The translations under genes were made by a program, and so were the position numbers. Of a DNA stretch of 45,639 nt, positions 1,398-42,046 are shown piece after piece (within the stretch, counting starts at the first letter, position 1; the number at the start of each line of letters is the position of its first letter). The notes below the pieces were generated by a model. It saw nothing but the letters and a program-made list of their open reading frames with translations, did not search any database and was not told the origin of the DNA. Source of the stretch: a virus. The DNA is taken from positions 1 through 45,639 of the IMG/VR virus record IMGVR_UViG_3300045885_000140; one strand, 5' to 3'.

Positions 1398-1742
1398 TCA
1401 TCCCTTCAGCGCCATCTCGTCCATCACGGAGAAGTACTGGCCGATCGACTGCGGGAGCTGCTCGCCGTACTTCGCCATGAACGCGGCGAACCGCTCGGTA
1501 GGATCTTTAAAGGCTGCTGCGATCTCTTCGTCGGGGATCTGCTGCGGGCTCACTGGGGCGGGCGTCGGCGATTCCATCCCGAGCGGAGCGCCGATCGGAG
1601 CCGGCGTAGAAAGTTGAGGAGCTTCTGCATTGCTCTTCTCCAAGTCGTAGTAGGCGCGCTTGATCGAGTCGATCGCATCGACCCCAGCGAAGCGCCCGAA
1701 GCTGGGCGGAATCTGCCTGAGATCCTTGCGAAGCTCAGTCAC
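1398..1742 (-). CDS. Small structural-operon protein, unknown function
   Basis: 114 residues if it starts at GTG 1742, which overlaps the upstream stop as GTGA; an ATG at 1757 is possible. It has a charged N-terminal helical region, a Pro/Ala-rich linker (TPAPIGAPLG, TPAPVSPQQ) and a helical C-terminus ending MDEMALKG. It sits between the gp4-like tail gene and another virion-operon gene, so a minor virion or assembly role is inferred from position only. One CTTTAAAG site (1505-1512) lies inside and encodes Phe-Lys as TTT-AAA. Confidence 0.7.
   Translation of the reverse strand: MTELRKDLRQIPPSFGRFAGVDAIDSIKRAYYDLEKSNAEAPQLSTPAPIGAPLGMESPTPAPVSPQQIPDEEIAAAFKDPTERFAAFMAKYGEQLPQSIGQYFSVMDEMALKG
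1505..1512. promoter_or_regulatory. CTTTAAAG palindrome, coding copy
   Basis: One of 18 TTTAAA-core sites around the genome, here encoding Phe-Lys in the small gene at 1398-1742. Confidence 0.7.
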
Positions 1743-4633: not shown

Positions 4634-4650
4634 TGCCATCCTCCGAAGAG

Positions 4651-4682
4651 AAAAAAGGGGGACGCCCCGGTAGAGGCGTCCC
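4651..4682 (-). terminator. Rho-independent terminator after the capsid/decoration genes
   Basis: On the minus strand GGGACGCC (4682-4675) pairs with GGCGTCCC (4666-4659) across an 8-base loop and is followed by CC and six T. It probably ends or attenuates the high-level capsid transcript before the modification and tail genes. Confidence 0.88.
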
Positions 4683-4710
4683 AAGTCTTCGCATGGCTGC
4701 TGCGCGAAGC

Positions 4711-5100: not shown

Positions 5101-5184
5101 GATTGCCGTTCCTTCAGTCGCGCACCGCCTCCCAGTGCGCGCTCAGTTTGGCAGCGGGGGAAGGCCCGATTTACCCGCCGTTAG

Positions 5185-7667: not shown

Positions 7668-9889
7668 TTGCGCGCGTCTCCGTTAGGCTTCGCAGCCTGC
7701 TTCTTCTCCATGTTGAAGAGCGTGCGCTCGTTCGCGAGGTTCTGGCCCTCGACGCCGGCCGCGAGCTTCGCCATCTTCTGCTCCGCCTCGAACTTCAGCT
7801 CGCGGAACGCCTGCGCGACGAAGCGCGTCATCAGGCTGTTCTCCGCACGCAGGAGCTGCATCTGCTCTTCCTGCGCGCTCGACTCCGCCGTCTCGGCCTG
7901 ATCGAGGCGCTTCTGGGCCGCTTCGAGCACGTCCTTCGCAGCAAGCTCAGCCTGCTCCAGCACCTCGGTCGCCATCTGCTCAGCCTGCTGCAGAACCTGC
8001 TGCTCGACCTCGGTGCCGTTCCAGAAGCGCATCCCGTCACCGTAGCCAAGGAGCGAGAACACCTCGGCACCGACGTTCACCATGTTCATGCCCGGCACCG
8101 GCTGCGTCGCCATCTCCTTGAGGTTGCGCATCGCGAGAACGAAGCGCAGGAGCTTGCGGTTCGGGTCGGTCGCGTTCATGCCCACGCGCATACGCACGAT
8201 CAGCTCCTCGTCGATCATACGCTCGACCATCTCGCCCATTGAGGTCTTGTACGCCTTGGCGAGCTTCTCCGCGCCGCACAGCGCCATGATGCGTTCGTCC
8301 GTCTCGTAGTACTGCTCCAGCAGCACGAGCTGGCGCAGCGTCGGCAGCAGCCACGTCTCCGAGAGCGTGCGGATCGAGTACTCGCTGAGCGCGTTCGCGC
8401 CCTCGCCCAGCAGCTCAAGGCCACCGACCGTCTCGTTCAGCCTGCGATTGCTCGTGATCGAGGCGGCGCTGAAGTTCCCGAGCAGCTCGTCGATGTCGCT
8501 GTTCAGGCGATCCTGCTCGTTGTAGCTCGACGCCGTCACGTCGCCCCACTCCTGCGGGACGATGTCCGGGTCCGGCCCGCCGGGCGTGCGCATATGCGTG
8601 ACGCCGCCCGGGATGCCGTACATCAGGTTCGAGGTGTCGATCTGCTGCCCGGCGCGGACGAACCACTGCTTCTGCAGCACGAGGCGCACGTTGTCGCGGC
8701 GATCGTTGGTCAGCTCGTTCAGCTCACGCTGCAGCGAGCCCGCCATCACGAGCGGCGACTTCGGCATCACGCGGTGCGTTTCGAGGTTGATGAAGCCCAT
8801 CGTCAGCGGGCGCTTGCCGTGCAGGTACACGTCTTCGAGCGCGTACGGTTCGCTGACCAGCAGGTCGGTGCCGATCGTCCAGTAGCAGATGTCGCCCTCG
8901 GAGCGCTCCACGATCCACTCGATCGCCATCACCAGCTCGTAGGCCGACGGCTCGGTCGCGGTCGTCACCGCATCCTGCTGCTTGCCTGCGCGCGTCTGGC
9001 GCGTCGTGTCGAACTCCTTCTTCGAGGCGGCGAGGATCTGCTGGTCAGTGTGACTGCGCCACTGGCGACCGCTGCGGTCTGGCTTGTCCATCCGCTCGCG
9101 CACCTCGGAGAGGTACATCGGCACGATGCGCCCGAGGTACGGCGAGGTGTTGATCGGGTCGTACCACTTCGCGTTTGGCGAGAACTTGATGTACTCCGGC
9201 GGCACCAGCTCGATGCATGGCTTGTCGGCGACGACCTCCTCGACCTGCGTTTCGATGGGCATCGTCATGGGTTGCCCCATCATGTCCATCGCCGGCATCC
9301 CGGTCGCAGCGTCGATCATCGGCTGCTCGACGACCTTCGTCTTGGTGCGCGTCTTGTAGTTCCAGTAGTTGTAGCTCACCACGATGCCGGTCTTGCCGGC
9401 ATCCTGAACCCCGCCAATGATCGTGAGGAACGACGGGATCGAATGTTCCAAGCGATACTGCAGTAGCGCCTCGATCATCTTCCCGGTCGCGACTCCAGCA
9501 GGATCGTCCTGATTCGACGCCTCGACGCTCGCGATCTGCGGGTTGGAGAAGAACGCGGCCGTCGCCTGCGCTTCGAGCTTGCGCAGCCACGAGCGCGACT
9601 TCGGGCGGAAGCCCTTCGAGCGGTGCTTGTAGCGATCGTGGTAGTACTTCGAGCCCGCGTCGTGACGCCCGTCGAAGTAGCGCAGCCCAAGCTCCCAGTC
9701 CTTGCGGTAGTTCGCATCAGTGAAGTCGGTGGCCGTTGACCACGCATCGCGCGCCAGCTTTAAAGCTTCCTTCTCGGTGAGCCCGCCCGCGTAAGCCTCT
9801 GCCTGCTCCATCGGGTCAGCGTCGTTGGGTTGATCACGGATGTTGCCGGCTGCTTGGCTGCGGATGCCGGGAGGAGGTGAGTTGATCAT
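7664..9889 (-). CDS. Portal protein (P22-like, 741 residues)
   Basis: The length is close to P22 portal (725). The ATG at 9889 (MINSPPPG) overlaps the upstream stop as TGATG and gives the expected N-terminus. The body shows portal-like features: ELGLRYFDGRHDAGSKYYHD near the wing domain, SRSWLRKLEAQATAAFFSNP, LLQYRLEHSIPSFLTIIGGV, and the crown/stem helices around LNELTNDRRDNVRLVL and SSYNEQDRLNSDIDELLGNF. From about residue 610 it becomes a long coiled coil (QAEQMATEVLEQAELAAKDV) matching the barrel helix of P22-type portals. It forms the dodecameric ring for packaging and tail attachment. One CTTTAAAG site lies near its 5' end. Confidence 0.85.
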   Translation of the reverse strand: MINSPPPGIRSQAAGNIRDQPNDADPMEQAEAYAGGLTEKEALKLARDAWSTATDFTDANYRKDWELGLRYFDGRHDAGSKYYHDRYKHRSKGFRPKSRSWLRKLEAQATAAFFSNPQIASVEASNQDDPAGVATGKMIEALLQYRLEHSIPSFLTIIGGVQDAGKTGIVVSYNYWNYKTRTKTKVVEQPMIDAATGMPAMDMMGQPMTMPIETQVEEVVADKPCIELVPPEYIKFSPNAKWYDPINTSPYLGRIVPMYLSEVRERMDKPDRSGRQWRSHTDQQILAASKKEFDTTRQTRAGKQQDAVTTATEPSAYELVMAIEWIVERSEGDICYWTIGTDLLVSEPYALEDVYLHGKRPLTMGFINLETHRVMPKSPLVMAGSLQRELNELTNDRRDNVRLVLQKQWFVRAGQQIDTSNLMYGIPGGVTHMRTPGGPDPDIVPQEWGDVTASSYNEQDRLNSDIDELLGNFSAASITSNRRLNETVGGLELLGEGANALSEYSIRTLSETWLLPTLRQLVLLEQYYETDERIMALCGAEKLAKAYKTSMGEMVERMIDEELIVRMRVGMNATDPNRKLLRFVLAMRNLKEMATQPVPGMNMVNVGAEVFSLLGYGDGMRFWNGTEVEQQVLQQAEQMATEVLEQAELAAKDVLEAAQKRLDQAETAESSAQEEQMQLLRAENSLMTRFVAQAFRELKFEAEQKMAKLAAGVEGQNLANERTLFNMEKKQAAKPNGDARK
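9758..9765. promoter_or_regulatory. CTTTAAAG palindrome, coding copy
   Basis: Lies in the portal gene, where it encodes Ala-Leu-Lys with a TTA leucine codon. Flanks extend the palindrome to AGCTTTAAAGCT. Confidence 0.7.
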
Positions 9890-13874: not shown

Positions 13875-15313
13875 CAGTACTCTTCGGCAGGCACGACAGG
13901 CGCCTGCGCCCCGTAAGCATACCCTTCCTGCTCGCTGTCAGGGGCAACCGGCGCAGCGAACGTGGTGACGAAGGCGTCCCAGAGGTCAGGCGAGTTACCG
14001 AGGCGGGCCTTGATCTGGTCCTTCTCCTCGACGCGGAGCTTGCCCTTGTCGAACCAGTAGCGCGCCGCGGTCGCCTCGCGGATCAGCTCCGGCACGTTCG
14101 GGAGCGCACCGCCGCGCTTCACCCAGTCGGCCGCTTCCCAGTACATCTCGCTGCGCTTGTTGAAGTACTTGGGATCGGTCGCCTTGCCGGCGAACTCGAC
14201 CGGGGTCACCGGGTGCTTGCCGAGGTAGAGCGCATCGACGAGCCCCGCGCCCCAGCCGCCAGTGTGATCAACGAAGATCATGCTGGCGTTGCCTTCACGC
14301 TTTAAAGCCACTACTCGGCCCGAGATCTCGTGCGTGCGGGCGTGACGCATCACGGAAGGCTCGAACGCCTGCAGGCCCTGACGCGGGAAGAGCACGGTGC
14401 GATCGTCGCCGAAGCGCGCAACGTCGCAGCCGATCACCTTCGCCGCCCACTGGAACTGGTGGTCTTCGAGCTTGCGATCGATCGCCGCGCGCACCTGATC
14501 GGGCCCGAGCAGCGCGTTCAGCGCGGTGGGCGGGAAGAGCCCGAGGATGTACGCCATCACCCACGGGTTGTCGCGCCCGTACTGCGCGATCTGCTCCTTC
14601 GCCCAGTCGAGCGAGATTCGCTTGGAGCGCTCACGATCGTCCGGGTCGCCCGTAATGCGCACCACGGTCCAGAGGTGCGACTGCGCGTTTACCGCGTGGT
14701 AGAGCACGCCATCATGGCTGGTGGGGTTGCCTGCAGTCACGATCTTGCCCCACTCGCAGTTGGAGAGTCCCTGCTCAGCAGAGCGCAGCACCGCGGGCGG
14801 GATGTCGCCCGACTCGTCGATGAGGTAGAGGATGTACTTCGCGTGCAGGCCCGAGAGCGTGCGCCCCTGCGCCTCGGCGTCAGCCTTCTGCGCGTACGCG
14901 CGCGCTGCGATGAACCACGTCTCCGGGTGCTGCTTCGAGTAGATGCGCTCCGCTGTCCACTCGAAGCAGTGCTTCAGGAACTCGCTGCGCTGCTGCCACT
15001 TCGAGAACTCCGACCACAGGTTGTCGCGCAGGTTGTCGGCGGTGACGCTCACCGCTGCGCCCTTCGGGTGCTCGCCGTTGCCGGCGAAGCATGACAGGAA
15101 CCACCATCCGACCCACGCGAGCACCGCGGTCTTGCCCGGGCCCGCGCAGGCCTGCATCGCGATGCGCGCTGCAATGTGATCGTTCGATGCGAGCGCACGC
15201 AGCGCCTTCAGTTGCCATGCGTCGGGCTCGACAGCGAAATTATTCCAGACGAAGAGCGCCGGGTTCTCGCGCCACGCGCGCACGCCCTCGACGATGGGGT
15301 CACGACCCGACAT
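13874..15313 (-). CDS. terL: Terminase large subunit
   Basis: 479 residues, standard length. The ATPase part has Walker A CAGPGKT at about residues 55-61 and Walker B KYILYLIDESGD near 160-170. The C-terminal RNase H-like nuclease has acidic residues in VIGCDVARFGDDRT, SMIFVDHTGGWGAGLVDALY and DLWDAFVT. It cuts and pumps DNA into the prohead through the portal. It overlaps the small-subunit gene by 14 bases. A CTTTAAAG site encodes Ala-Leu-Lys in the nuclease part. Headful packaging, as in P22, would fit a circularly permuted genome. Confidence 0.93.
   Translation of the reverse strand: MSGRDPIVEGVRAWRENPALFVWNNFAVEPDAWQLKALRALASNDHIAARIAMQACAGPGKTAVLAWVGWWFLSCFAGNGEHPKGAAVSVTADNLRDNLWSEFSKWQQRSEFLKHCFEWTAERIYSKQHPETWFIAARAYAQKADAEAQGRTLSGLHAKYILYLIDESGDIPPAVLRSAEQGLSNCEWGKIVTAGNPTSHDGVLYHAVNAQSHLWTVVRITGDPDDRERSKRISLDWAKEQIAQYGRDNPWVMAYILGLFPPTALNALLGPDQVRAAIDRKLEDHQFQWAAKVIGCDVARFGDDRTVLFPRQGLQAFEPSVMRHARTHEISGRVVALKREGNASMIFVDHTGGWGAGLVDALYLGKHPVTPVEFAGKATDPKYFNKRSEMYWEAADWVKRGGALPNVPELIREATAARYWFDKGKLRVEEKDQIKARLGNSPDLWDAFVTTFAAPVAPDSEQEGYAYGAQAPVVPAEEY
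14300..14307. promoter_or_regulatory. CTTTAAAG palindrome, coding copy
   Basis: Lies in the terminase large subunit gene, encoding Leu(TTA)-Lys. Confidence 0.7.
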
Positions 15314-16432: not shown

Positions 16433-18424
16433 TAACCGACCCGCATCGGTCACCGCCCAGTACTCGTACAGGGTGCCGTTGCGGCCCTTCAGCTCGATCG
16501 TCTCCACCAGACGCGGCTTGACGAGCATCAGGCGCCGCAGCGCGAGATCCACGTCGGCGGTCTTGCGCTTCGCCAGATCCGGCTCAGCGGCCTCCAGTGC
16601 CTTCCTGACGTTGTTGTTGCCGGTGGTGTTCACGGTCACGCGCCCGCCTCCGTCAATCACCGCCATCAGCGCACGCAGCAGCAGCTTGTCTTCGCGGTCG
16701 CGCAGGATGCGGTTCTCCGTCGGGCTCTTCGGCTCTTCGGGCAGCAGCACCTGATGCTCCGGGTTCCAGTACCAGCCGTAGCTGTGGCCCTCCGGGCCGT
16801 AGTTCGACTTCGCGCAGCGCAGGATGCGCCTGCGGTCGCCGGCCGGTTCGTCGTCCTCGATGTTCTCGACCGACAGCTCCCAGCGCGAGCGCACGCTGTT
16901 GTGCCACGCGGTCGAGCCCGAGTAGAGCGCGCCCTTCTTCTGCGCGTGCGCCGCAGCTCGCGATGCGTGCCCGAGCAGCAGCACGGCGCTGTCGGGGCGA
17001 TGCGCAGTCAGTCTCTTTAAAGACGTGATGAAGTCGCGCACGCTCGCGCGGTGGATCTCGTTCGCGCCATACACGTCGCTCGCGTTGTCGATGATGACGA
17101 GATCGATCTCCTCGTCGCGCACCACCTCGTTGACGTGCGTGTAGGCCTGCGTGAGACGCCGCGTGTAGTCCACGTTCTCGTCGTACATCACGTTCATCGC
17201 CTCGGTGGAGTCCTCGACGATGAGCTTGCCATCGAGCGATTCCATGTCGATGCCGAGCGCCGCGCAGATCTTGCTGATCCTCCAGTGCAGCACGGGAGTC
17301 GCGTCCTCGCACGAATAGACAAACACGCGCCGCACCTCGCTGCCGATGCCCATGAACGGTGCGCCGGTCGCCACGCATACCGCGAGCACGAGCGCGATCT
17401 GGCTCTTGCCGGCACTGCCGTGCGACGCGAGAAGCGTCACCGCGTTCGCCGGCAGCCAGCGCTCGACGATGAAGCGTGGCGTCGTTGGCTCGGTCTTCGC
17501 GAGCGCTCTGAAGTCGAGCCTCGATCTGATGGTGGGCGCCTCCTCGACCAGCGTGACGTTCTTCCAGCCCGCCTCCTGAGCGACCCAGAACACCGTCTTG
17601 TAGCTGACGCGATCGGGCTTGAACGTCGTCCACTTCTTCGCGTCGTGCTCGCGCCACTTGCGCGACTTCTTCGACCACTCGACCCACAAATCGTAGGCGC
17701 CGACCGTGCGCAGCGCGTGACCGATCCGCACCCACTGGTGGTAGTCATCCGGCGAGATGAACTCCAGCGCGAGACGCAGCTCCGCGAGCGTGCGCTCGTT
17801 GACCGTGAAGGCGCCTGTATGCTTGTCCCTGATGACGTTGTCGTCGCGCTCGACGTGCGGCGAGTGCGCCTCGGCGAGCGTCGGGTAGAGCGAGGAGATG
17901 TCGATCAGCGCGTCGCCCGTGCCGGCGAGCACGCTGCCAGTGACCGTAAAGAACCTGCCGTGCGAGTAGCACTCGATGCCGGTGCCGTTCTCGCCGAGCG
18001 TGTTGAAGGCCTTCCCGTAGCCGTACAGGTGCGCGCCCTTGCCGCTGGGCGAGATGTCGTTGAACGTCGGGTACAGCTCCAAGAGCGCCATAGCGCGCTC
18101 TGTCGAGCCGTCGAAGTCAACGCCCTGCCAGTGGTTGCCGGTGCCATCGGGGCCCAGCGCGAAGCCGAGGCCGTCGTAGTCGCCGTCCAGCAGGCGTGCG
18201 CAGGCCTGCTCGAACGTGGCGAAGTGCTTCTGGTCGGCCTCGCTGTCGAGCACGCCAACGCGCGGCGTGCCGGTGTCAGCGTAGTACGGAACCTTGCGTG
18301 CCTTCTTCCCTCCTGCCATGAGCTTCCAGACGAGCCACCGCACTGCCTCCAGCATCTGCGGCGGCGCCGTGAGGCGCACCCTCTCGATGAGCGCCTCGAC
18401 CTCGCGAGGCTCTCTCATCTTCAT
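16418..18424 (-). CDS. PrimPol-helicase replication protein
   Basis: 668 residues from ATG 18424, which overlaps the regulator's stop (ATGA). The N-terminal domain (about 25-170) is an archaeo-eukaryotic-type primase-polymerase: VDFDG (Asp103, Asp105), ISPSGKGAHLYGYG (His132) and YSHGRFFTVTG are its motifs. A PriCT-like helical region follows (SPDDYHQWVRIGHALR, about 225-250). A RepA-type hexameric helicase follows, with Walker A SHGSAGKS near 334-341 and Walker B EIDLVIIDNASD. The C-terminal 70 residues look like a winged-helix domain (KRKTADVDLALRRLMLVKPR). It would prime and unwind phage DNA at the origin. It is placed in the late-gene arm directly after the Cro-like regulator. One CTTTAAAG site lies inside. 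Confidence 0.88.
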   Translation of the reverse strand: MKMREPREVEALIERVRLTAPPQMLEAVRWLVWKLMAGGKKARKVPYYADTGTPRVGVLDSEADQKHFATFEQACARLLDGDYDGLGFALGPDGTGNHWQGVDFDGSTERAMALLELYPTFNDISPSGKGAHLYGYGKAFNTLGENGTGIECYSHGRFFTVTGSVLAGTGDALIDISSLYPTLAEAHSPHVERDDNVIRDKHTGAFTVNERTLAELRLALEFISPDDYHQWVRIGHALRTVGAYDLWVEWSKKSRKWREHDAKKWTTFKPDRVSYKTVFWVAQEAGWKNVTLVEEAPTIRSRLDFRALAKTEPTTPRFIVERWLPANAVTLLASHGSAGKSQIALVLAVCVATGAPFMGIGSEVRRVFVYSCEDATPVLHWRISKICAALGIDMESLDGKLIVEDSTEAMNVMYDENVDYTRRLTQAYTHVNEVVRDEEIDLVIIDNASDVYGANEIHRASVRDFITSLKRLTAHRPDSAVLLLGHASRAAAHAQKKGALYSGSTAWHNSVRSRWELSVENIEDDEPAGDRRRILRCAKSNYGPEGHSYGWYWNPEHQVLLPEEPKSPTENRILRDREDKLLLRALMAVIDGGGRVTVNTTGNNNVRKALEAAEPDLAKRKTADVDLALRRLMLVKPRLVETIELKGRNGTLYEYWAVTDAGRLHASS
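17015..17022. promoter_or_regulatory. CTTTAAAG palindrome, coding copy
   Basis: Lies in the PrimPol-helicase gene, encoding Leu(TTA)-Lys. Confidence 0.7.
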
Positions 18425-18675
18425 GCAGGCACAAACAGCTCCGGGGCGAGGCGCTGGCGCTTGACGCCGGTGGCGCGCTCCACCTCGACGATGCGATCGA
18501 TCGGGCACCCGCCGTGGCGCGTCCACTGCTGGACCGAGGCGCGCTCGATCTTGAGCAGGCTGGCGAGCTTCACCTGCGAGCCGGCCTTGTCGATGGCCTC
18601 CCTTAGCGCGGCCGTCGCGATCTTCTCCATGCCACGGTTGCGGTTGCGGAAGACGTGCTTCTTGCGAGCGGCCAT
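18421..18675 (-). CDS. YdaS/Cro-like helix-turn-helix regulator
   Basis: 84 residues. The segment AIDKAGSQVKLASLLKIERA followed by SVQQWTRHGGCPIDRIVEVE is the YdaS/Cro-type helix-turn-helix, in which Gln-Trp and the Cys/Pro-Ile-Asp-Arg stretch are characteristic. AAGGAGG precedes ATG 18675. It is transcribed divergently from the CI-like gene and is the first gene of the leftward replication/late arm, the usual place for Cro. It probably represses the rightward repressor gene. The next gene overlaps it by ATGA. Confidence 0.85.
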   Translation of the reverse strand: MAARKKHVFRNRNRGMEKIATAALREAIDKAGSQVKLASLLKIERASVQQWTRHGGCPIDRIVEVERATGVKRQRLAPELFVPA

Positions 18676-18705: not shown

Positions 18706-18734
18706 GTTAGCACAACCATCGCCGCGGTAAGCAA
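18706..18734 (-). promoter_or_regulatory. Candidate leftward promoter for the Cro-like gene
   Basis: On the minus strand TTGCTT (18734-18729) and GCTAAC (18711-18706) are separated by 17 bases. The match to sigma70 is weak. The -35 overlaps the left half of the outer inverted repeat around the CTTTAAAG site, which would suit repression by a bound regulator. Confidence 0.4.
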
Positions 18735-18782
18735 CACCAGCGTTTGGTGAACTTTAAAGAACACTTCGTCGAAGGTGTTGCT
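18730..18782. promoter_or_regulatory. Nested palindromic operator candidate between divergent regulators
   Basis: AGCAACACC (18730-18738) is the inverted copy of GGTGTTGCT (18774-18782). The centre of this repeat falls within half a base of the centre of CTTTAAAG (18752-18759). Between them GTG (18747-18749) and CAC (18762-18764) are also symmetric. This is the expected place for CI/Cro operators. Confidence 0.7.
18752..18759. promoter_or_regulatory. CTTTAAAG palindrome, intergenic copy between the regulators
   Basis: Centre of the nested symmetric element in the divergent regulator intergenic region; the strongest contextual argument that the motif is an operator. Confidence 0.75.
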
Positions 18783-18796
18783 GGTCTTGCCTTCAT

Positions 18797-18830
18797 GATG
18801 GTAGTGTCATCAACTGCTACCACTACCATC
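18797..18830. promoter_or_regulatory. Second inverted repeat upstream of the CI-like gene
   Basis: GATGGTAGTG (18797-18806) and CACTACCATC (18821-18830) form a perfect 10-bp inverted repeat with a 14-base spacer, ending 17 bases before the CI-like start codon. It could be an operator or a 5' hairpin. It is unrelated in sequence to CTTTAAAG, so two regulators may act here. Confidence 0.65.
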
Positions 18831-18847: not shown

Positions 18848-19237
18848 ATGAAGAATCGCATCCGTGAGGCAAGGATGGATGCAGGTATGACGCAGGCAGA
18901 GCTTGCGCGCAGGATCGGACTGAAGCGAGCGAGCGTCTCGCAATGGGAAAGCGGACTCACTCAACCGACGGCAGAGAACCTGAACCAGATCGCGCACGCG
19001 ACGAAGAAGCCGGTGTCGTTCTTCTTCGTCTCGGACTCAGGCGAGGCGGCGCGCGTGGCAACGAGCAACCCGCTCAGTGATCGGGTGGCGAACGACATCA
19101 AGTCGCTGCCACCGGCGCTGCGCACGATCGCCGAGCACAAGGTCGCGGATCTCGCCGCCTACGCTCGTCTGCTACCGAGCTGGCTGCAGCGGCAGGCGAT
19201 CTCGCCGCCGACGGACAGCGAGAGCTACGACGAGTGA
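18848..19237 (+). CDS. CI-like XRE-family repressor
   Basis: 129 residues. An N-terminal XRE helix-turn-helix occupies about residues 3-58: RIREARMDAGMTQAELARRI, then LKRASVSQWESGLTQPTAEN, then LNQIAHATKKPVSFFF. The C-terminal half is helical and lacks the Ser/Lys protease dyad of LexA-type repressors, so induction would not be by RecA-stimulated self-cleavage. It starts the rightward arm, divergent from the Cro-like gene, and probably holds lysogeny by binding in the intergenic region. AAGGGGG lies upstream of the ATG. Confidence 0.87.
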   Translation: MKNRIREARMDAGMTQAELARRIGLKRASVSQWESGLTQPTAENLNQIAHATKKPVSFFFVSDSGEAARVATSNPLSDRVANDIKSLPPALRTIAEHKVADLAAYARLLPSWLQRQAISPPTDSESYDE

Positions 19238-19634: not shown

Positions 19635-19666
19635 CAGACTGTTACAGACGACGGTGCAGGTAGTGC

Positions 19667-19695
19667 TTGACAAGCTTTAAAGCGTGCCTCAGAAT
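19667..19695 (+). promoter_or_regulatory. Early sigma70-type promoter with CTTTAAAG in the spacer
   Basis: Perfect -35 TTGACA (19667-19672), 17-bp spacer and -10 CAGAAT (19690-19695). The CTTTAAAG site (19675-19682) lies between the two elements, where a bound protein would exclude RNA polymerase. Confidence 0.8.
19675..19682. promoter_or_regulatory. CTTTAAAG palindrome in promoter spacer
   Basis: Intergenic copy directly between the -35 and -10 of the promoter driving the gene at 19727. Confidence 0.75.
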
Positions 19696-23210: not shown

Positions 23211-23513
23211 ATGAACGCCAACCTCAAAGCCACCCTCCGCAACGAAGCAACCGCCGAAGCCGCCGTGCGCGCCATCCGCCACGAGCTGCGCGTGACCCGC
23301 GCCCGCCACAGCCTCGTCGAGGAAGTAATGGGCGTGGTCTACGGCTCGATCCGCAACGTGAGCGACACCCGCCGGCAAGAGCCGGTGCGCATGGCCGAGC
23401 AGGGCGCGGACATCGAGCTGCTGATCGGAGGTATCGAGGTGATGCTCTGGGACGCCAAAGCCCTAGAGATCCCCGCCAACGTCGTCGCGTGGTTCGCGCG
23501 TCGCGGCATCTAA
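23211..23513 (+). CDS. Early protein, unknown function
   Basis: 100 residues, helical and Arg/Ala-rich (NEATAEAAVRAIRHELRVTR, ADIELLIGGIEVMLWDAKAL). It has its own promoter and the leader ACGGAGCTGACAG. No family recognised. Confidence 0.7.
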   Translation: MNANLKATLRNEATAEAAVRAIRHELRVTRARHSLVEEVMGVVYGSIRNVSDTRRQEPVRMAEQGADIELLIGGIEVMLWDAKALEIPANVVAWFARRGI

Positions 23514-23522
23514 AGCTCCCCT

Positions 23523-23528
23523 TACCAT
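23523..23528 (+). promoter_or_regulatory. Orphan -10-like element (TACCAT)
   Basis: CTTACCATACG is identical to the -10 region of the promoter at 20518, but no TTGACA is found 17 bases upstream. The leader that follows (CTCAACGCAACACC) also resembles the leader at 23178. It may be a decayed or activator-dependent promoter duplicate. Confidence 0.4.
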
Positions 23529-23567
23529 ACGCCTACCTCAACGCAACACCTAACGGAGACTGACACC

Positions 23568-23810
23568 ATGAAATACCGCATCGAACGCACTGGCACCGAC
23601 ATCCGCAACGAGATCTACACCGACGACTACGCGACCGCCATCGTCGTCGCCAACGCGCTGGCCCGCGACCTGCGTGGCACCAGCATGGGCGTGCTGGTCG
23701 TGCGCACCGAGACCAACCGCGTCGCTCGCTCCTTCATGTTCAAGAAGGGCGCGCGCAAGGCGTGCAGCGTCCGGGGCTTGGACGGCACCATCCTCGTCGC
23801 GGGCGAGTAG
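23568..23810 (+). CDS. Small early protein, unknown function
   Basis: 80 residues with an alternating strand-helix pattern (MKYRIERTGTDIRNEIYTDD, ATAIVVANALARDLRG, MGVLVVRTETNRVARSFMF). It follows the leader ACGGAGACTGACACC. No family recognised. Confidence 0.7.
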   Translation: MKYRIERTGTDIRNEIYTDDYATAIVVANALARDLRGTSMGVLVVRTETNRVARSFMFKKGARKACSVRGLDGTILVAGE

Positions 23811-23836
23811 CCCCAACCCCAGCCGGAGACTGACCC

Positions 23837-24484
23837 ATGAAGAACTCAGCAGCACTGAAGAAGCCGGCCACGGCGGTGAAGTTCGAGACGCGCGAGCAGT
23901 GGCTGCAGGCGGCTCTGCCGCTCCTGCAGCGCGACGTGTTCGGCAAGCACGGCCTGACGATCCCGACCGACGCGAAGGTCGCCTGCTCGTGGCCCGGCGG
24001 CGGCAGCGCCCGCAAGCGCATCGGCGAGTGCTGGGCGCGCAAGGCCAGCTCCGCGAACATCAACGAGATGTTCATCTCGCCGAAGATCGAAGACGTGGCC
24101 GGCGCGTTCGGTGCGCTGGCGGTGCTCGTCCACGAGTGCATCCACGCGATCGACGACTGCGCCAACGGCCACAAGAAGGCCTTCAAGCGCATGGCGAAGG
24201 ACGTGGGCCTCGAAGGCAAGGCCACCTCGACGAGCGCCTCGGAGGGCCTGCAGGGCGTCCTGAAGGCCATCGCCGCGGAGCTGGGCACCTACCCGCACCG
24301 GGCGCTCAACCTGTCGATGCGGAAGGTCCAGAAGACCTACCTCGTGAAGTGCGGTTGCCCGGTCTGCACCGCGACGTGGCGCATCACCCAGCAGTGGATC
24401 GACCGCGCCGAGGGCGGCACCCTGTTCTGCCCGATCTGCGGGAGCGACGAGGCGGTGGCCGAGTCCGGTGGGGGTGACGAGTAA
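23837..24484 (+). CDS. SprT-like zinc metalloprotease
   Basis: 215 residues. VLVHECIHAIDDCANGHKKA contains the metalloprotease motif His99-Glu100-x2-His103, with a further His downstream (GHKKAFKRM) as third ligand. A C-terminal zinc ribbon has Cys169, Cys171 and Cys174 paired with Cys195 and Cys198 (KCGCPVC, FCPICG). SprT/Spartan-type proteins remove DNA-protein crosslinks; in phages they accompany replication or recombination modules. It precedes the SNF2 helicase here, which fits a DNA-repair or host-protein removal role. Confidence 0.85.
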   Translation: MKNSAALKKPATAVKFETREQWLQAALPLLQRDVFGKHGLTIPTDAKVACSWPGGGSARKRIGECWARKASSANINEMFISPKIEDVAGAFGALAVLVHECIHAIDDCANGHKKAFKRMAKDVGLEGKATSTSASEGLQGVLKAIAAELGTYPHRALNLSMRKVQKTYLVKCGCPVCTATWRITQQWIDRAEGGTLFCPICGSDEAVAESGGGDE

Positions 24485-24494: not shown

Positions 24495-24502
24495 CTTTAA
24501 AG
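24495..24502. promoter_or_regulatory. CTTTAAAG palindrome upstream of the helicase promoter
   Basis: Intergenic copy ending 11 bases before the -35 hexamer of the promoter for the SNF2 helicase gene. Confidence 0.75.
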
Positions 24503-24545: not shown

Positions 24546-24559
24546 GGCACTACCTGACA
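24546..24559 (+). repeat. Conserved initial transcribed sequence, copy 2
   Basis: Identical to 19699-19712 and at the same distance from its promoter. Confidence 0.7.
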
Positions 24560-27185: not shown

Positions 27186-27595
27186 ACCAGATGAGACGCT
27201 TCGACGAGATGACGCAGATCGAGCTGTCCGAGCTGTGGGTCAACACCAAGGCCGAGGAGCAGGCAGCAACAGCACTGCGCTACGCGATCGAGGAGGAGCT
27301 GCTGAAGAAGATGGACGAGCTGCCGGACCCGGAGGCAAGCAAGACCTACCGGATCGGAAGCTTTAAAGTGACAGTCAAGCGCAGCCAGACATACACGCTT
27401 GACAAGCAGGCGGACCTTGACTCACTATGCGCTCCACTACCCGCTGAGCTACGGCCGATCAAGCGATCGCTGGACCCCACGGGACTGAAGTGGCTGCGCG
27501 AGAACCGCCCAGAGCTGTACGCGAAGATCGCGAAGGGCATCAGCGTGAAGCCTGCGAAGACGAACGTGAGCATCACACTAACCGAGGAACCGTGA
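27182..27595 (+). CDS. Recombination-operon protein upstream of Sak4, unknown function
   Basis: 137 residues from GTG 27182 (GTGA overlap). A long N-terminal helix (AATALRYAIEEELLKKMDEL) is followed by a short beta region (SKTYRIGSFKVTVKRSQTYT) and a C-terminal segment ending VSITLTEEP. Proteins of this size and layout often precede Sak4 ATPases in phages, probably as partners. A CTTTAAAG site encodes Ser-Phe-Lys. Confidence 0.7.
   Translation: MNQMRRFDEMTQIELSELWVNTKAEEQAATALRYAIEEELLKKMDELPDPEASKTYRIGSFKVTVKRSQTYTLDKQADLDSLCAPLPAELRPIKRSLDPTGLKWLRENRPELYAKIAKGISVKPAKTNVSITLTEEP
27361..27368. promoter_or_regulatory. CTTTAAAG palindrome, coding copy
   Basis: Encodes Phe-Lys in the gene at 27182-27595. 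Confidence 0.7.
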
Positions 27596-29030: not shown

Positions 29031-30347
29031 ATGGAGCTGCCTGTCACCGACCGCGTCGCCGACGCGATCTACGCGACGTACAAGAATGACGACGAGCAAC
29101 GCGAGTACCTCGGCGCCAGCATCATCGGCGGGCCGTGCAAGCGCCAGCTCTGGTACTCCTTCCGCTGGGCCGTGGCCCCGTCTTTCGACGGGCGCGTGCT
29201 GCGCCTCTTCGACAGCGGCAAGCGCGAAGAGCTGCGCCTGATCGAGGAGCTGCGCAAGGCCGGCATGACCGTCTACGACAACGAAGACGGCAAGCAGATC
29301 GGCTTCCGCGAGGGGCACTTCGGCGGGAGCTGCGACGGCGTGGTCGAGGGCGTGCCCGGCGCGGAGAAGACGCCGCACGTCTTCGAGGCGAAGACGCACA
29401 ACCTGAAGAGCTTCGGTGCGCTGAAGAAGGACGGCGTGAAAAAGTCCAAGCCTGTCCACTACGGTCAGATGCAGACCTACATGGGCAAGCTGGAGCTGAC
29501 GCGCGCGCTCTACGTCGCCGTCTGCAAGGACACCGACGAGATCTACACCGAGCGCGTCTCCTTCGACAAGGCCGAGTACACGCGCCTCTGCAAGGTCGCC
29601 GACTTCGTCATCGGCGCTGAGATCCCGCCCGATCGCGTGAGCGAAGACCCGGCATGGTTCGAGTGCAAGTTCTGTCCGTTCGCCGATGTCTGCCACGGCG
29701 AGACGCTGCCGGTCGTGAGCTGCAGGAGCTGCTCGCACGCGACGCCGAAGGGCGACGGGACGTGGCACTGCGAGCAGTGGAACGACACGATCCCGAGCGT
29801 CGAGGCGCAGCGCGTGGGCTGCGACAAGCACCTCTACATCCCGCAGCTCGTGAGCTTCGGCGAGGTCGCTGACGCCGGCAGCGAGTACGTCGTCTACAGG
29901 CACCGGACGAACGACCAGCACTTCGTCAACGGCACGAGCTTCGAGCACAGCGACGACAACGAGCCGATCCCGGTCTACAGCTCCGCCGAGCTGCGCATTG
30001 CCGGCGCGAGCGGCGCCGCGGACGGGATGCTGCACGCTTTAAAGGCTGAGTTTGGGGCGACGGTCGAGCGCTACGAGCCCGGGAAGTCGCCCGGTGACGG
30101 CGCCGAAGAATCTCTGGCGCCAATCGACATCGGAACGCCGGAACCGATGCCGAAACAACAACCGGCGCAAAGAGAGGGAAGACTGCTATGGCACGAGGCG
30201 AGCGAGACACTGTGGGTGGAGAAGGACACGGCGGGCTACAAGGAGGCGATGGAGTCTGGGGAGTGCGACGACGTGACTGGCATCCCCTCGTGGGAGCAAC
30301 GTTTCGCGCAGCAGTGTACGGAGGAATCTGGATCGGTTGCTGCGTGA
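29031..30347 (+). CDS. Cas4-like PD-(D/E)XK exonuclease
   Basis: 438 residues from ATG 29031, preceded by CGGAGAACCTG; an earlier in-frame ATG lacks a good ribosome site. Residues about 50-180 hold the nuclease core: GGSCDGVVEG (Asp), HVFEAKTHN (Glu-x-Lys) and HYGQMQTYMGKLELTRALYV (Gln motif). A cysteine cluster follows (FECKFCPFADVCHGET, then SCRSCSHA and HCEQW), part of which may bind an Fe-S cluster as in Cas4/AddB-type enzymes. The C-terminal third is phage-specific. It would resect ends for the Sak4/DUF669 pair. A CTTTAAAG site encodes Ala-Leu-Lys. Confidence 0.83.
   Translation: MELPVTDRVADAIYATYKNDDEQREYLGASIIGGPCKRQLWYSFRWAVAPSFDGRVLRLFDSGKREELRLIEELRKAGMTVYDNEDGKQIGFREGHFGGSCDGVVEGVPGAEKTPHVFEAKTHNLKSFGALKKDGVKKSKPVHYGQMQTYMGKLELTRALYVAVCKDTDEIYTERVSFDKAEYTRLCKVADFVIGAEIPPDRVSEDPAWFECKFCPFADVCHGETLPVVSCRSCSHATPKGDGTWHCEQWNDTIPSVEAQRVGCDKHLYIPQLVSFGEVADAGSEYVVYRHRTNDQHFVNGTSFEHSDDNEPIPVYSSAELRIAGASGAADGMLHALKAEFGATVERYEPGKSPGDGAEESLAPIDIGTPEPMPKQQPAQREGRLLWHEASETLWVEKDTAGYKEAMESGECDDVTGIPSWEQRFAQQCTEESGSVAA
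30037..30044. promoter_or_regulatory. CTTTAAAG palindrome, coding copy
   Basis: Lies in the Cas4-like nuclease gene as Leu(TTA)-Lys. Confidence 0.7.
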
Positions 30348-31751: not shown

Positions 31752-32754
31752 CCTGCCGCCGCGCGTCCGGCAGAAGGGGCGCGCACTCTACTACGTCGGC
31801 AACGACGGCAAATGGATCGCTCTCGGCAGCGATCGTCGTGAGGCGCTGGAGAAGTACGCGCGCCTCGAAGGCGCGAGCGACGGGCGCCTCATCGCGAACC
31901 TGATCGACACCTACTGGCTGCGCTACCTTCCGACGCAGACAACCAAGCTCGCGGACAACACCGTCCGCAACTACGAGCGATACTCGCGCACTTTAAAGGC
32001 TCTATTCGGCGAGGTGCCGTGCGAAGATCTACAGCGCGCGCAGCTCCAGCAGTTCTACGACTTTCACCCGAAGAAGGCCGAGGCTCGCAACACCGTGGGC
32101 TTCATCAAGATGCTGCTGGAGATGGCTGAGGGCTGGGACTGGGTCGAGCGCAACGTCGCCGAGCACGTCAAGACCGGCACGATCGTCGGCCGCGACGTTG
32201 AGATCAACGAAGAGCACCGCGAGAAACTGCGCGCCACGCTGGCGCCGGCCGCACGCATCGCGATCGACATCGGCTTCATCGTCGCCACGCGCATCTCCGA
32301 GGTGGCCGACATGGAGATCGCTGACTGGAAGCTCGACGAGGGCGTCGTCTACGTTAAACGCCGCAAGAGCAAGGACAAGCTGCCGGTCGAGATCACGCCA
32401 GAGCTGCAGGAGCTGTACAAGGAAGCGCTCGCGTTACCGCGCAAGGTGCGCACGATGAAGTACCTGCTCGTGAACGTCCACGGCCAGCGCTACAGCGAGC
32501 ACGCGATCGGCGACGCTTTCAGGGAAGCCTGCAAGAAGCTGGGCTTTTACGACCCGCCCAGCAAGGCGCACCCGAAGGGTCGCTATCGGTACTGGTATCA
32601 CGACCTCAGGCGCACCTCCGCCCGGGCCGACAAGTCAAGCGCCACTAAACGCCTTGGGCACGCCAGCGAGTCCACAACGAAGAAGTTCTACACTGGCAAA
32701 GTGAAGGACGTGGTGACCCCGTTGCGGCCTAAAAAGGCTTCTCCAATCCGGTAG
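31723..32754 (+). CDS. int: Tyrosine integrase
   Basis: 343 residues. The N-terminal arm/core-binding region includes GRKRSVHHDLPPRVRQKGRA and TVRNYERYSRTLKALFGE. The catalytic domain has Arg190 (ATRISEVADM), a Lys in the beta-hairpin (about 215), His293 and Arg296 (YHDLRRTSA), His313 (LGHAS) and the nucleophile Tyr323 (KKFYTG). All tyrosine-recombinase active-site residues are present. It integrates the phage into the host chromosome; the attP candidate lies immediately downstream. A CTTTAAAG site encodes Thr-Leu-Lys. Confidence 0.93.
   Translation: MGRKRSVHHDLPPRVRQKGRALYYVGNDGKWIALGSDRREALEKYARLEGASDGRLIANLIDTYWLRYLPTQTTKLADNTVRNYERYSRTLKALFGEVPCEDLQRAQLQQFYDFHPKKAEARNTVGFIKMLLEMAEGWDWVERNVAEHVKTGTIVGRDVEINEEHREKLRATLAPAARIAIDIGFIVATRISEVADMEIADWKLDEGVVYVKRRKSKDKLPVEITPELQELYKEALALPRKVRTMKYLLVNVHGQRYSEHAIGDAFREACKKLGFYDPPSKAHPKGRYRYWYHDLRRTSARADKSSATKRLGHASESTTKKFYTGKVKDVVTPLRPKKASPIR
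31991..31998. promoter_or_regulatory. CTTTAAAG palindrome, coding copy
   Basis: Lies in the integrase gene as Leu(TTA)-Lys. Confidence 0.7.
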
Positions 32755-32977: not shown

Positions 32978-32995
32978 CATCAAAAGGAGAAAGTA

Positions 32996-35284: not shown

Positions 35285-35292
35285 CTTTAAAG
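35285..35292. promoter_or_regulatory. CTTTAAAG palindrome at the convergent terminator
   Basis: Fifth intergenic copy; it overlaps the left edge of the terminator stem where the two arms meet. Confidence 0.7.
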
Positions 35293-38786: not shown

Positions 38787-40781
38787 CTACTCAACAACGT
38801 TTTCGGACATCAGGTACATCAACGCCTTCCTCGCGTGCGGAGGCGTCGTTGGCCCGGTCGGGTGCATGATCTGCTGGAGCGCGTTGCGACCCTGCGTCGT
38901 CATCAGGTGCTTGGCGACCTGACGGCGACCGATGATGCCGATCAGTGCGGCGGCGCCAGTCATCGGCGAGAGGAGCTGCCCGACGCCGATGCCGGAGATC
39001 GTGCCGTAGTTGATCAGCTTCTCCGCCGTCGGCGACTCGCCCTTGTAGCCCTTCAGGTTCAGGCGCCGCATCGCGGCCATGATGTTGTCGATCTGCTGCC
39101 CGATCGCCGGGTCACCGAAGAGCACGTCGCGCACCTTCTTCTCCGGCATCATCTTCAGGAAGCGCGTCGGCGAGAAGATGCGCTCGCCTGTCGCCGAGCC
39201 CTGCGGGACGACCATCGAGCGCTCGATCGCGTTCTCCAGCACGCCGCGCGCGAGCACGTCGGCGGAGCCGGGATCTACGCCGCGCACCGAGCGGATGATC
39301 TGATCCTGCGCGTTGACGCTCTTCAGCCCGAGGAAGCGCTCGCCGGCACGGTAGTAGTTCTCTTCGGTGATCTCGCCGACGATGCGATTGAGCGCGCTCT
39401 TCTCCAGCTTCTCGATCTGCTCGCTCGCCATCTTGTAGTTCCCGCGCGCGCGCATGAGCGCGTCGGAGAGCTGCTTCGCGGCGGTGCTGCCTTGCGCCTG
39501 CGCGGCGGTGTCGGCGAGATCGTCCAGCAGGGCGCGATGCAGGTCACGCTGAAGACGCACCGCCTCGCCCATATGCAGCGAGTCGAACACCTTCGCGCCC
39601 TTGCCGTAGCCGGCGTTGCCGAAGAGGCGCAGGTACTTCTGCATATCGCTCGCGCTGAGTGGGTCGTCGAAGCGCTTCACCCAGTGCAGCAGATCCTTCT
39701 GCAAGCCCTCCAAGATGCGCTCACCGTGATCATCGGTGTTCTCCGCCATGCGCTTCTGGATGATGGCGCGCGCACGCGAGGGGTCCACGATGGGCGTATG
39801 ACCGACGGCAGAATCGACGGCCGCGAAGTCCTGCGCCGCCTGCTGCGAGCGCGCACGGAAAAGCTGATCTGCCCAGTCATCGCGTGTCGTCTTTAAAGTG
39901 TGTCCCAGTGCCTGCGCGTCCACCTGAACGCCGCCGGTGATGCTGCTCATCGTGCGGTCCAGCTCAGCCATGACCGCGTTCATGTTGCCCTCCAGCCCCT
40001 CGCGCCCGAAGGAGCTGGCGAACGGGCCAAACTCGGACGCCTCCTGAACGCGCTTTAAAGACTGAGATCCCGTGAGCTGCGCGGTGTCCAGCTCCAGCCC
40101 GGGGATCGCACGCTCCAGCGCCCGGCCCTCGGCGACGACGCCGGGAGCTGCGGCGCGCTCAGCACGCCCCGCCAGCCACGCTGCAGCGGCCTTGGGCACC
40201 TGCCCGGTGCTGAGGAGCTGGGCGATGGGGCGCGCCAGAACGTTCCCCACGCCCTGCGTGGCGCCGCCCAGCAGGCCCGCCCGCCCAGCCTCCCCAGCCC
40301 GCTCCAGAACGGTCCTGTCCTCGGCCCCGGGGATCATGGCGCCGATGCCCTGCTTCACGAGGTTGCCCACTGCGGCCCCTCCAGCAGCCCCAGCGACGCC
40401 CGTGCCGATCGCCCCGGGCCCGGTGGGGGCGCCCAGCGCCGCCCCGCCCACGCCGCCCACGAGCGACCCCAGCATCTCTGGCACGTCCCCGAAGAGATCG
40501 GCGATGTCGGCCAGCTCCAGCCGTGTCGAGTCTGCGGGCCTCCAGCGCTCCGTGGGCGACGGACGCACGAGCACCTCCCCGCCTTGGGCGCGGACGTTCT
40601 CCGAGCCGTAGCGGGCCCTGTAGTAACTCGCCGGGTCGTTCTTGAAGGAGGCGAGCGCCCGGTCCCAGAAGCCAACCCCCTCGCCCCCGCGATCGACCTC
40701 GACCTCGCCGAAGACATCCGCGTCGGACAGCAGCCCGCCGCCGCCAAAGACCTGCGCGTCGGTGAGAAGCTCGCCGGCCAT
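38787..40781 (-). CDS. Internal virion/ejection protein candidate
   Basis: 664 residues. Residues about 100-145 form a Gly/Ala hydrophobic segment (GSLVGGVGGAALGAPTGPGA, IGTGVAGAAGGAAVGNLVKQ), and long charged helices follow (DQLFRARSQQAAQDFAAVDS, DLHRALLDDLADTAAQAQGS). Near the C-terminus is another hydrophobic stretch (LLSPMTGAAALIGIIGRR). This combination is typical of proteins stored in the head and ejected into the host envelope in P22- and T7-like phages (gp7/gp16/gp20 equivalents). It has two CTTTAAAG sites. Its ATG overlaps the previous stop (TAATG). Confidence 0.7.
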   Translation of the reverse strand: MAGELLTDAQVFGGGGLLSDADVFGEVEVDRGGEGVGFWDRALASFKNDPASYYRARYGSENVRAQGGEVLVRPSPTERWRPADSTRLELADIADLFGDVPEMLGSLVGGVGGAALGAPTGPGAIGTGVAGAAGGAAVGNLVKQGIGAMIPGAEDRTVLERAGEAGRAGLLGGATQGVGNVLARPIAQLLSTGQVPKAAAAWLAGRAERAAAPGVVAEGRALERAIPGLELDTAQLTGSQSLKRVQEASEFGPFASSFGREGLEGNMNAVMAELDRTMSSITGGVQVDAQALGHTLKTTRDDWADQLFRARSQQAAQDFAAVDSAVGHTPIVDPSRARAIIQKRMAENTDDHGERILEGLQKDLLHWVKRFDDPLSASDMQKYLRLFGNAGYGKGAKVFDSLHMGEAVRLQRDLHRALLDDLADTAAQAQGSTAAKQLSDALMRARGNYKMASEQIEKLEKSALNRIVGEITEENYYRAGERFLGLKSVNAQDQIIRSVRGVDPGSADVLARGVLENAIERSMVVPQGSATGERIFSPTRFLKMMPEKKVRDVLFGDPAIGQQIDNIMAAMRRLNLKGYKGESPTAEKLINYGTISGIGVGQLLSPMTGAAALIGIIGRRQVAKHLMTTQGRNALQQIMHPTGPTTPPHARKALMYLMSENVVE
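39891..39898. promoter_or_regulatory. CTTTAAAG palindrome, coding copy
   Basis: Lies in the ejection-protein gene as Leu(TTA)-Lys; only 162 bases from the next copy, the closest pair in the genome. Confidence 0.7.
40053..40060. promoter_or_regulatory. CTTTAAAG palindrome, coding copy
   Basis: Lies in the same ejection-protein gene as Leu(TTA)-Lys, paired with the site at 39891. Confidence 0.7.
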
Positions 40782-42046
40782 TACCGCCGCACCAGACCGG
40801 CGCCGAATTGGATCGCCGCCGCGGCCGGGTTGATCGGCGGCATCGACGGCGTTGCCGTCTGCGATGGCACCTGCTCACTCGTCGGCTGCGTCCAGCCCTG
40901 CCCGGTCCAGTACAGGTTCCCACGCGGGGTCGCGTAGACGCCGGGCGGGCGCTGATCGGGCGGCGGGATGCCGGCGCCGGGCGCAGGCGCGGCCGGCTCG
41001 ATCGCGCGCTGTGACGGCGCCGCGCGGCGACCAAACTCCGTCTGGTAGCGGCGCTCCGTCTGCTGCGACTGACGCTGCGCGACCTTCTGGATGTCGGCAA
41101 GGACGCGACGCACCTCGTCGTAGCTCTGCGCACGATCGAGCGCGCCGAAGGAATCCTGCAGCACCTTCAGCTCGCCCTCGCTGAGCGCACCGAAGCCGGT
41201 GGCGCCGGTCGGGCTCGCCGCCTTCAGTGCCTGAATCGTATTGAGCGCGATGCGACCTTTAAAGGCGTTGAGTCCGATCTGGAAGTCTTTCGCCTCGGAG
41301 CTGATCGGCAGCGCCGCCGCGATGTTGCCGGTCAGCCCGCTGCCCAGATACGCGCCCTTGTGCTCTCGCAGGCGCTTCGCCTCCTTGATGACATCGTCAA
41401 GAGCCTCCGTCACCGAGTCCACGTTGCTGCGCGCGATGACTGGCGCGGCCTCGCGTTCGAGGCGCTTCTTCTCCGCATCCTCGGCAGTGTTCGCAGCAGA
41501 CACTTCCTTCTGCCTGCGATCTGCCGCCGCGTCGTAGCGCTTGTCGAGGTTCGGCGTCGTGATGCCGCCGGGCAAACGCACGCCAGTCTGCCTGAACACC
41601 TCGTCGGCAATCCGCTCCGGCTCCATGAACTGCGAGAGATAGTCAGCCGTCGCGAACGCCTCCCTCATCTTCGCGTTGTAGTTCTGGCGTTCGAGCGCCG
41701 GCCCGATCCCAGCAGGGTCGGCGAGCGCGCGCCCGCCGGCCGCAGAAGCGCGGCTGCGCATGAGCGCCTCACCAGAGCTGATCGTGCGCGTTCCGCCCGG
41801 GCCCACGTTCGGGTTGTCGAGACGGTTGTAGCCGGAGACGGCGCCGCGCGCGTTCTGGATCGGGATGTCGAGCACCGCGCCCTGCCGGTCCACGAGATCG
41901 CGGATGTAGCGGTCTTCGAGCCACGCGATGTCTTCCGGGGCGAAGCGCAGCGCCTCGCCGCGAGCAATCATGTCGCGCCGGTCGCGAAAGTCGAGCGAGC
42001 CAGCGCCCTCGGCGCCACTGTAGTAGTCGGTGAGGAAGCCGGCCAT
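40781..42046 (-). CDS. Internal virion/ejection protein candidate
   Basis: 421 residues, mostly helical: DIAWLEDRYIRDLVDRQGAV, DSVTEALDDVIKEAKRLREH and a Pro-rich C-terminal region (PAPGAGIPPPDQRPPGVYAT) ending VQFGAGLVRR-like (AAAIQFGAGLVRR). A single Gly/Ala-rich segment lies near SGLTGNIAAALPI. It lies in the cluster of three large proteins between the gp10-like tail protein and the fibre, the ejection-protein position in P22-like genomes. A CTTTAAAG site encodes Ala-Phe-Lys. Confidence 0.65.
   Translation of the reverse strand: MAGFLTDYYSGAEGAGSLDFRDRRDMIARGEALRFAPEDIAWLEDRYIRDLVDRQGAVLDIPIQNARGAVSGYNRLDNPNVGPGGTRTISSGEALMRSRASAAGGRALADPAGIGPALERQNYNAKMREAFATADYLSQFMEPERIADEVFRQTGVRLPGGITTPNLDKRYDAAADRRQKEVSAANTAEDAEKKRLEREAAPVIARSNVDSVTEALDDVIKEAKRLREHKGAYLGSGLTGNIAAALPISSEAKDFQIGLNAFKGRIALNTIQALKAASPTGATGFGALSEGELKVLQDSFGALDRAQSYDEVRRVLADIQKVAQRQSQQTERRYQTEFGRRAAPSQRAIEPAAPAPGAGIPPPDQRPPGVYATPRGNLYWTGQGWTQPTSEQVPSQTATPSMPPINPAAAAIQFGAGLVRR
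41257..41264. promoter_or_regulatory. CTTTAAAG palindrome, coding copy
   Basis: Lies in the gene at 40781-42046 as Phe(TTT)-Lys(AAA). Confidence 0.7.

Follow-up and report, generated by a model that had tools for sequence, protein, structure and literature searches.

The 8-bp palindrome CTTTAAAG, which lies at 18752-18759 between a Cro-like and a CI-like gene of the viral DNA analysed here (the window, 45,639 nucleotides in full), belongs to a site family that is associated with an SprT-like gene. The spellings CTTTAAAG, GTTTAAAC, ATTTAAAT and GTGTAAAC represent this one family across phages of many hosts, and the window carries the SprT-like gene at 23837-24484. The co-occurrence of sites and gene suggests a phage-wide gene-control network, undescribed so far. 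We give an even chance to the reading that CTTTAAAG at 18752 is one operator of such a network of short palindromes, which would be linked to the SprT-like metalloprotease, run by it or with it, and reach into the Cro/CI switch.

CTTTAAAG is a perfect palindrome and the most over-represented 8-mer of the window, with 16 identical copies against 0.07 expected from dinucleotide shuffles. By our own gene calls, on which the coding and intergenic split rests, five of the 16 copies are intergenic although intergenic DNA makes up 4.2% of the window (P = 4e-4). The other 11 are coding, against a mean of 0.04 after synonymous codon shuffling, which indicates that the DNA letters themselves are under selection. 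The copies outside the switch, the promoter holding one of them and the gene that tracks the site family are as follows.

1505..1512, no strand: coding CTTTAAAG
9758..9765, no strand: coding CTTTAAAG
14300..14307, no strand: coding CTTTAAAG
17015..17022, no strand: coding CTTTAAAG
19667..19695, plus strand: promoter TTGACA-17-CAGAAT (P19667), with CTTTAAAG 19675-19682 within its spacer
19675..19682, no strand: intergenic CTTTAAAG in the spacer of P19667
23190..23197, no strand: CTTTAAAG, 13 nt before ATG 23211, which starts the first gene of the 23211-24484 stretch ending with the SprT-like gene
23837..24484, plus strand: SprT-like (Spartan-like) metalloprotease, 215 aa, HExxH and zinc ribbon; the gene tracking the site family
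24495..24502, no strand: CTTTAAAG just past the SprT-like gene, 11 nt upstream of the -35 of promoter P24514
25262..25269, no strand: coding CTTTAAAG
27361..27368, no strand: coding CTTTAAAG
30037..30044, no strand: coding CTTTAAAG
31991..31998, no strand: coding CTTTAAAG within the integrase gene
35285..35292, no strand: intergenic CTTTAAAG, immediately preceding a terminator-like hairpin
39891..39898, no strand: coding CTTTAAAG
40053..40060, no strand: coding CTTTAAAG
41257..41264, no strand: coding CTTTAAAG

We also notice that four promoters of the form TTGACA-17-(CAGAAT/TACCAT/TAACAT), at 19667, 20518, 23142 and 24514, share GTGCTTGACA, and that GGCACTACCTGACA stands downstream of two of them.

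Scanning viral contigs with the promoter pattern TTGACANNCTTTAAAG, blind to SprT, returned 120 loci. Four of these are GC-rich and strongly enriched in further CTTTAAAG, and all four carry an SprT-like gene. The SprT-like protein is the one window protein common to the four, and it was found in none of the other 116. A second scan, with an SprT alignment, yielded 80 loci, whose palindromes were ranked among all 256 of 8 bp. An xTTTAAAx palindrome is the most enriched of the 256 in 34 of the 80 loci (CTTTAAAG in 7, GTTTAAAC in 22, ATTTAAAT in 5), and in control loci fetched by terminase or helicase such a palindrome ranks top in 0 of 17. The remaining SprT loci include a group with the near-palindrome GTGTAAAC, which occurs 20 times in Arthrobacter phage Yang (0.15 expected) and 22 times in Microbacterium phage Zeta1847 (0.11 expected). 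Once GTGTAAAC is counted as well, enrichment is seen in 67 of the 91 sequences that have SprT homologs; the 91 include near-copies, and many of the non-enriched ones are short fragments.

Two motif scans blind to SprT searched for a site between a Shine-Dalgarno-like GGA and ATG. They returned 216 loci no shorter than 4 kb, in which enrichment was judged after removal of the ascertained copy. SprT was present in 10 of the 22 enriched loci versus 0 of the 194 non-enriched ones, all counted on fragments (Fisher P = 1.3e-11). Searching the whole contigs of the 22 enriched loci added SprT in five, and clustering added a sixth (L356); after both steps, no SprT was seen in six of the 22. Two further loci, L032 and L043, had been candidates for enrichment without SprT and were set aside: the sites in L032 are part of a longer 16-bp GTCAGTTTAAACTGAC operator, and three of the five copies in L043 fall within a tandemly repeated stretch. 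L032, a viral contig with no detectable SprT, holds seven copies of this distinct, longer TGTCAGTTTAAACTGAC-like operator at positions 1244-6146.

Site counts in annotated isolates with SprT are: Crosby 41, KeAlii 23, Zeta1847 22, Yang 20, R26L 20, R5C 17, Pan1 16, Floof 16, Mica 7 and ECO1230-10 5. The reversed pattern occurs 0 times in the first eight of these, and six phages without SprT (Sycamore, MoxS-R1, Whirlwind, Caelum, Legacy and ObLaDi) have 0 or 1 site. In Yang, Zeta1847, R5C and Pan1, four annotated site-bearing phages from other genera, SprT is the sole window protein detected. Among 38 enriched sequences, too, no family is shared as widely as SprT, which is present in 27 versus at most 8 for any other; a protein cluster of 17 among the same sequences appears to consist of antisense ORFs of the SprT gene. 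The terminase and helicase relatives found in viral contigs have in common neither the sites nor the switch, and a search of bacterial genomes for prophage relatives through primase and terminase returned none.

The spelling of the site follows the protein. On the SprT tree the spellings cluster, requiring 25 changes versus 43 when shuffled (0 of 200 shuffles), and the CTTTAAAG spelling arises in several separate places. In the literature, CTTTAAAG and GTTTACAC were met only as incidental strings, mostly in primers and unrelated text, and no paper was found that combines GTTTAAAC with phage genome, intergenic and motif. As a separate observation, CGAGCTCG-type palindromes are over-represented in GC-rich actinophages, for which codon usage is the likely cause.

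The association has exceptions in both directions. SprT without family sites is seen in Bordetella phage CN2, Epa5, Eden and Armstrong, and no dominant alternative site was found in Eden, CN2 or Epa5. Arthrobacter phage SWEP2 (L240) has 20 GTGTAAAC sites and no SprT gene. Its relative Liebe (L241), about 80% identical to it across half of the sequence compared, has both SprT and 17 sites, so that SWEP2 likely lost SprT, probably through a natural deletion. The Liebe homolog is gp49 (Liebe record 36441-36962), annotated as hypothetical (E 2e-71). Some SprT loci show other repeats. In L155, TGCCGGCA occurs 19 times versus 0.54 expected, besides 4 GTGTAAAC and 2 GTTTAAAC. L185/L186 and L141/L143 lack the usual site and have other strongly repeated 8-mers (GGAACGTC/TAGGACGT and AAGCCATG, respectively), which may be alternative sites.

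The placement of the sites is consistent with control of transcription. Among 32 enriched loci, 17 have a site within -150 to +20 of the SprT start versus 2.9 expected, a count that includes some near-copies and is estimated at about 12 of 24 once they are removed. Of the 22 sites of Zeta1847, 17 lie at -40 to +60 of a start codon, where 3.4 would be expected (P = 2e-10). Yang has 8 of its 20 sites in intergenic DNA (P = 5e-5) and 8 of 20 near starts, and in L154 eight sites stand between a Shine-Dalgarno-like GGA and ATG. Sites occupy the -35/-10 spacer at 19675 of the window, in L083 and three times in L028, and they directly follow the -10 at Yang 34736 (upstream of sprT) and Yang 40577; these positions are typical of operators and roadblocks. 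The core of the site is 8 bp, and its flanks carry little information: Y in front of GTTTAAAC and R behind it, C in front of GTGTAAAC and G behind it.

We compared this arrangement with known systems of dispersed sites. The stoperators of cluster A mycobacteriophages (L5) are 13 bp long, asymmetric, oriented with transcription and bound by the cluster A repressor. As with the stoperators, tens of short sites are dispersed over a temperate phage genome, some near gene starts, and the 16 copies of CTTTAAAG fit this pattern. The sites described here differ in being 8 bp long with little flank information, mostly perfectly palindromic, tied to an SprT-like gene and present in unrelated phages. Stoperators are bound by the phage immunity repressor. 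The CI-like gene of the window does not travel with the sites. A role of stoperators in transcription has been noted (PMC3203893). The start-associated sequences (SAS) known from mycobacteriophages of cluster K and from Microbacterium cluster EF are 13 bp long, non-palindromic and nearly all start-associated (PMC3203893, PMC7302621). The SAS resemble our sites in adjoining start codons, as the eight sites of L154 do, and differ in that many of our sites are in promoters and coding DNA (11 of 16 coding in the window, 8 of 20 near starts in Yang) and that CTTTAAAG is perfectly palindromic. Multi-site repressor control over a phage genome through dispersed operators is also exerted by C1 of P1 and CIR of phiC31, which have longer sites, other repressor families and no SprT-like link. 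On the strength of the association we regard the system as new in kind, and we propose its regulatory mechanism as a hypothesis.

The 215-aa SprT-like protein has a Pfam match below the cut-off. Residues H99, E100, H103 and C174 are invariant in 50 homologs, and the AlphaFold2 model has a pLDDT of 90. Among solved structures none is close by sequence, and the best matches of the model are the SPRTN structures 6mdw and 6mdx, which are weak (E 0.013; TM 0.34 for 6mdw); among viral models, a Bordetella phage SprT matches strongly, better than the solved structures. As in SPRTN/Spartan, an HExxH domain appears to be followed by a zinc-binding domain. The conserved HExxH and the predicted Spartan-like fold make proteolysis likely. 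Spartan acts in crosslink repair, and we know of no fixed DNA sites that it uses; nor do we know of dispersed sites for ArdC of plasmid R388. ArdC is likewise a mobile-element protein that joins DNA binding to a metalloprotease domain, and differs as an ssDNA-binding anti-restriction protein (PMC7213743).

In the network reading, the SprT-like protein, probably as a dimer, would bind the sites or be needed by whatever binds them. Occupied sites would repress promoters and hinder transcription through genes, sprT included. The site at 18752, between two back-to-back weak promoters, would couple the Cro/CI switch to global control, and the repeat at 18797-18830 would be a separate operator, of CI or Cro. 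Several points weigh against the network. The Spartan family is known for proteolysis of DNA-protein crosslinks, not for sequence-specific repression; CN2, Epa5, Eden and Armstrong have the gene without sites, and SWEP2 has sites without the gene; a fast-evolving or host-encoded binder could escape detection; and most window copies are inside genes, where their function is a guess.

That no other gene is shared among the site-bearing phages speaks for direct DNA binding by SprT. In the fullest form of this reading, which we put forward tentatively, the SprT-like metalloprotease would be a sequence-specific, autoregulated, phage-wide transcription regulator with diversified site specificity (outer base C, G or A; inner base T or G). 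Where a phage has no recognised repressor, as in Arthrobacter cluster AZ, the SprT-like protein would be the immunity repressor that is missing there or would partner it directly. The sites kept by SWEP2 and the protease motif speak for removal of a binder by SprT. In that case the repressor or roadblock would be some other protein, encoded by the host or by the phage and, if by the phage, too diverged for recognition; the SprT-like protease would cleave it off or degrade it, much as ImmA-type proteases act on their repressors. We consider this possible but doubtful: no second protein family is common to the site-bearing phages, a host binder would be needed in Actinobacteria and Alphaproteobacteria alike with a preference tracking the SprT tree, and phages without SprT are without sites.

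It is rather improbable that the main role of the sites is in replication, repair, recombination or packaging, where the SprT-like protein would clear blocks formed by protein on DNA and promoter placement would be secondary. In favour of this reading, many sites are in coding DNA on both sides of the genome, and Spartan proteins act in crosslink repair (PMC9240642). It is at odds with the strong clustering of sites around the start codons of Zeta1847, in the intergenic DNA of Yang and the window, at the SprT start and in promoter spacers.

A network run by or with the SprT-like protein would bear on the immunity of cluster AZ phages. Arthrobacter cluster AZ phages, of which Powerpuff was tested, and their Microbacterium EH kin are reported to have no identifiable repressor and to share an SprT-like protease, and Powerpuff to form homoimmune lysogens (PMC8758107). 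The phages of the AZ and EH groups that we examined have 16-23 GTGTAAAC sites each, and the dispersed GTGTAAAC site was not found in PMC8758107 or in the Microbacterium genomics paper (PMC7302621). For the puzzle of cluster AZ immunity, the SprT-like protein thus becomes a candidate, and the sites, about 20 in each genome, become candidate operators. Many phages carry this gene under no other label than 'SprT-like protease' or 'transcription elongation protein', and it seems to make up one half of a control system that spans the genome. The DNA sites of this system can be recognised from the sequence itself, and the system crosses phages of Actinobacteria, Alphaproteobacteria and others.

Within the switch, the original prediction had placed two unrelated symmetric elements, one concentric with CTTTAAAG, and had suggested a separate site for each regulator. 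All sequence elements that it named are present, beyond chance, and the two symmetric elements are indeed unrelated to each other. The flanking genes are the expected regulators, in the divergent order of a lambda/P22-type Cro-CI operator.

18421..18675, minus strand: YdaS/P22-Cro-like regulator
18711..18720, minus strand: half-box GATGGTTGTG with one mismatch, overlapping the leftward -10-like region
18730..18738, no strand: left outer arm AGCAACACC, holding most of the leftward -35-like TTGCTT
18752..18759, no strand: intergenic CTTTAAAG between the cro-like gene and the CI-like gene, with each of the back-to-back -35-like hexamers about 17-18 bp away
18774..18782, no strand: right outer arm GGTGTTGCT, holding most of the rightward -35-like TTGCTG
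18797..18806, plus strand: left arm GATGGTAGTG of the second inverted repeat, overlapping the candidate rightward -10 TAGTGT 18802-18807
18821..18830, minus strand: right arm CACTACCATC of the second inverted repeat
18848..19237, plus strand: CI-like HTH_3 regulator, 129 aa, the HTH domain alone recognised

The outer arms match exactly with 35 nt between them, and their centre at 18756 is half a base off that of CTTTAAAG. When the regulatory region is shuffled, an exact arm of at least 9 bp concentric with a site has P = 4.5e-4 per site. GTG at 18747-18749 and CAC at 18762-18764 lie between, making an imperfect 18-bp palindrome. Concentric arms at the remaining 15 CTTTAAAG sites do not exceed 5, so the outer repeat is specific to the 18752 locus; present at one of 16 sites, it is rejected as part of the repeated site. 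As predicted, the leftward -35-like TTGCTT (18729-18734, minus strand) overlaps the left outer arm; it pairs with a weak -10, GCTAAC 18706-18711, over a spacer of 17. The rightward -35-like TTGCTG (18778-18783, spacer 18, -10 TAGTGT) overlaps the right outer arm equally. Since both arms overlap -35-like hexamers, the outer symmetry may reflect no more than a pair of back-to-back -35 regions. These two promoters are weak by consensus and absent from the list of the promoter scanner, so that we infer the promoter reading of the region. Leader hairpins hiding the Shine-Dalgarno sequences of the cro-like and CI-like genes were also considered and dropped, being no stabler than shuffles (z -0.63 and +0.97).

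The claim that CTTTAAAG joins the switch to genome-wide sites held up. It is very unlikely, in contrast, that CTTTAAAG is the site of the Cro-like or CI-like protein and that the switch proteins thereby control the whole genome. Its central position and the concentric repeats speak for this assignment, but neither protein was found in other phages carrying the site family, where the SprT-like protein alone is shared, and the outer repeat is missing elsewhere; for the CI-like protein, no relative was confirmed in viral contigs. The dispersal of CTTTAAAG also departs from lambda/P22-type operators, whose repeats are confined to the switch and early promoters. That the excess of CTTTAAAG is a compositional or codon artefact has next to no chance, refuted by both the dinucleotide and the synonymous-codon shuffle controls.

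The idea of a site for each regulator suits the second inverted repeat better. This repeat, nearer the CI-like gene, extends to 11 bp per arm (P = 4e-4 for an 11-bp inverted repeat in regional shuffles), and its GGTAGTG box recurs at promoters: as an inverted pair at 18800/18821 in the switch, as another at 19659/19701 around P19667, and singly at 24548 after P24514. Recurrence at the switch and early promoters is a trait of lambda/P22-type operators. GGTAGTG has 9 copies in the genome, 5 of them intergenic, and the boxes outside the switch are the following.

19659..19665, plus strand: GGTAGTG box upstream of promoter P19667
19701..19707, minus strand: CACTACC box downstream of P19667, inverted partner of 19659
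24548..24554, minus strand: CACTACC box downstream of promoter P24514

In L124/L035, too, the corresponding CTTGACAAGCTTTAAAG promoter is followed downstream by a CACTACC box. Judged by this recurrence, the repeat at 18797-18830 is a better candidate than CTTTAAAG for the CI/Cro operator. In L124, at 2050-2105 and 3845-3910, a CAGACGGAGTCTG inverted repeat lies beside GGTAGTG at two CTTTAAAG sites and is a candidate phage-specific operator.

Elsewhere in the window, 35020-35256 encodes a protein with an Acb2/Tad1 hairpin domain (Pfam E 7e-13), which likely acts as an anti-CBASS/anti-Thoeris sponge. The intergenic DNA after the integrase (32755-32995) has inverted GAATTGGAGAAG and TATGAAAAC/GTTTTCATA repeats and is likely the attP region, and a phage-borne tRNA-Met (CAT) lies downstream of the integrase at 33411-33485.
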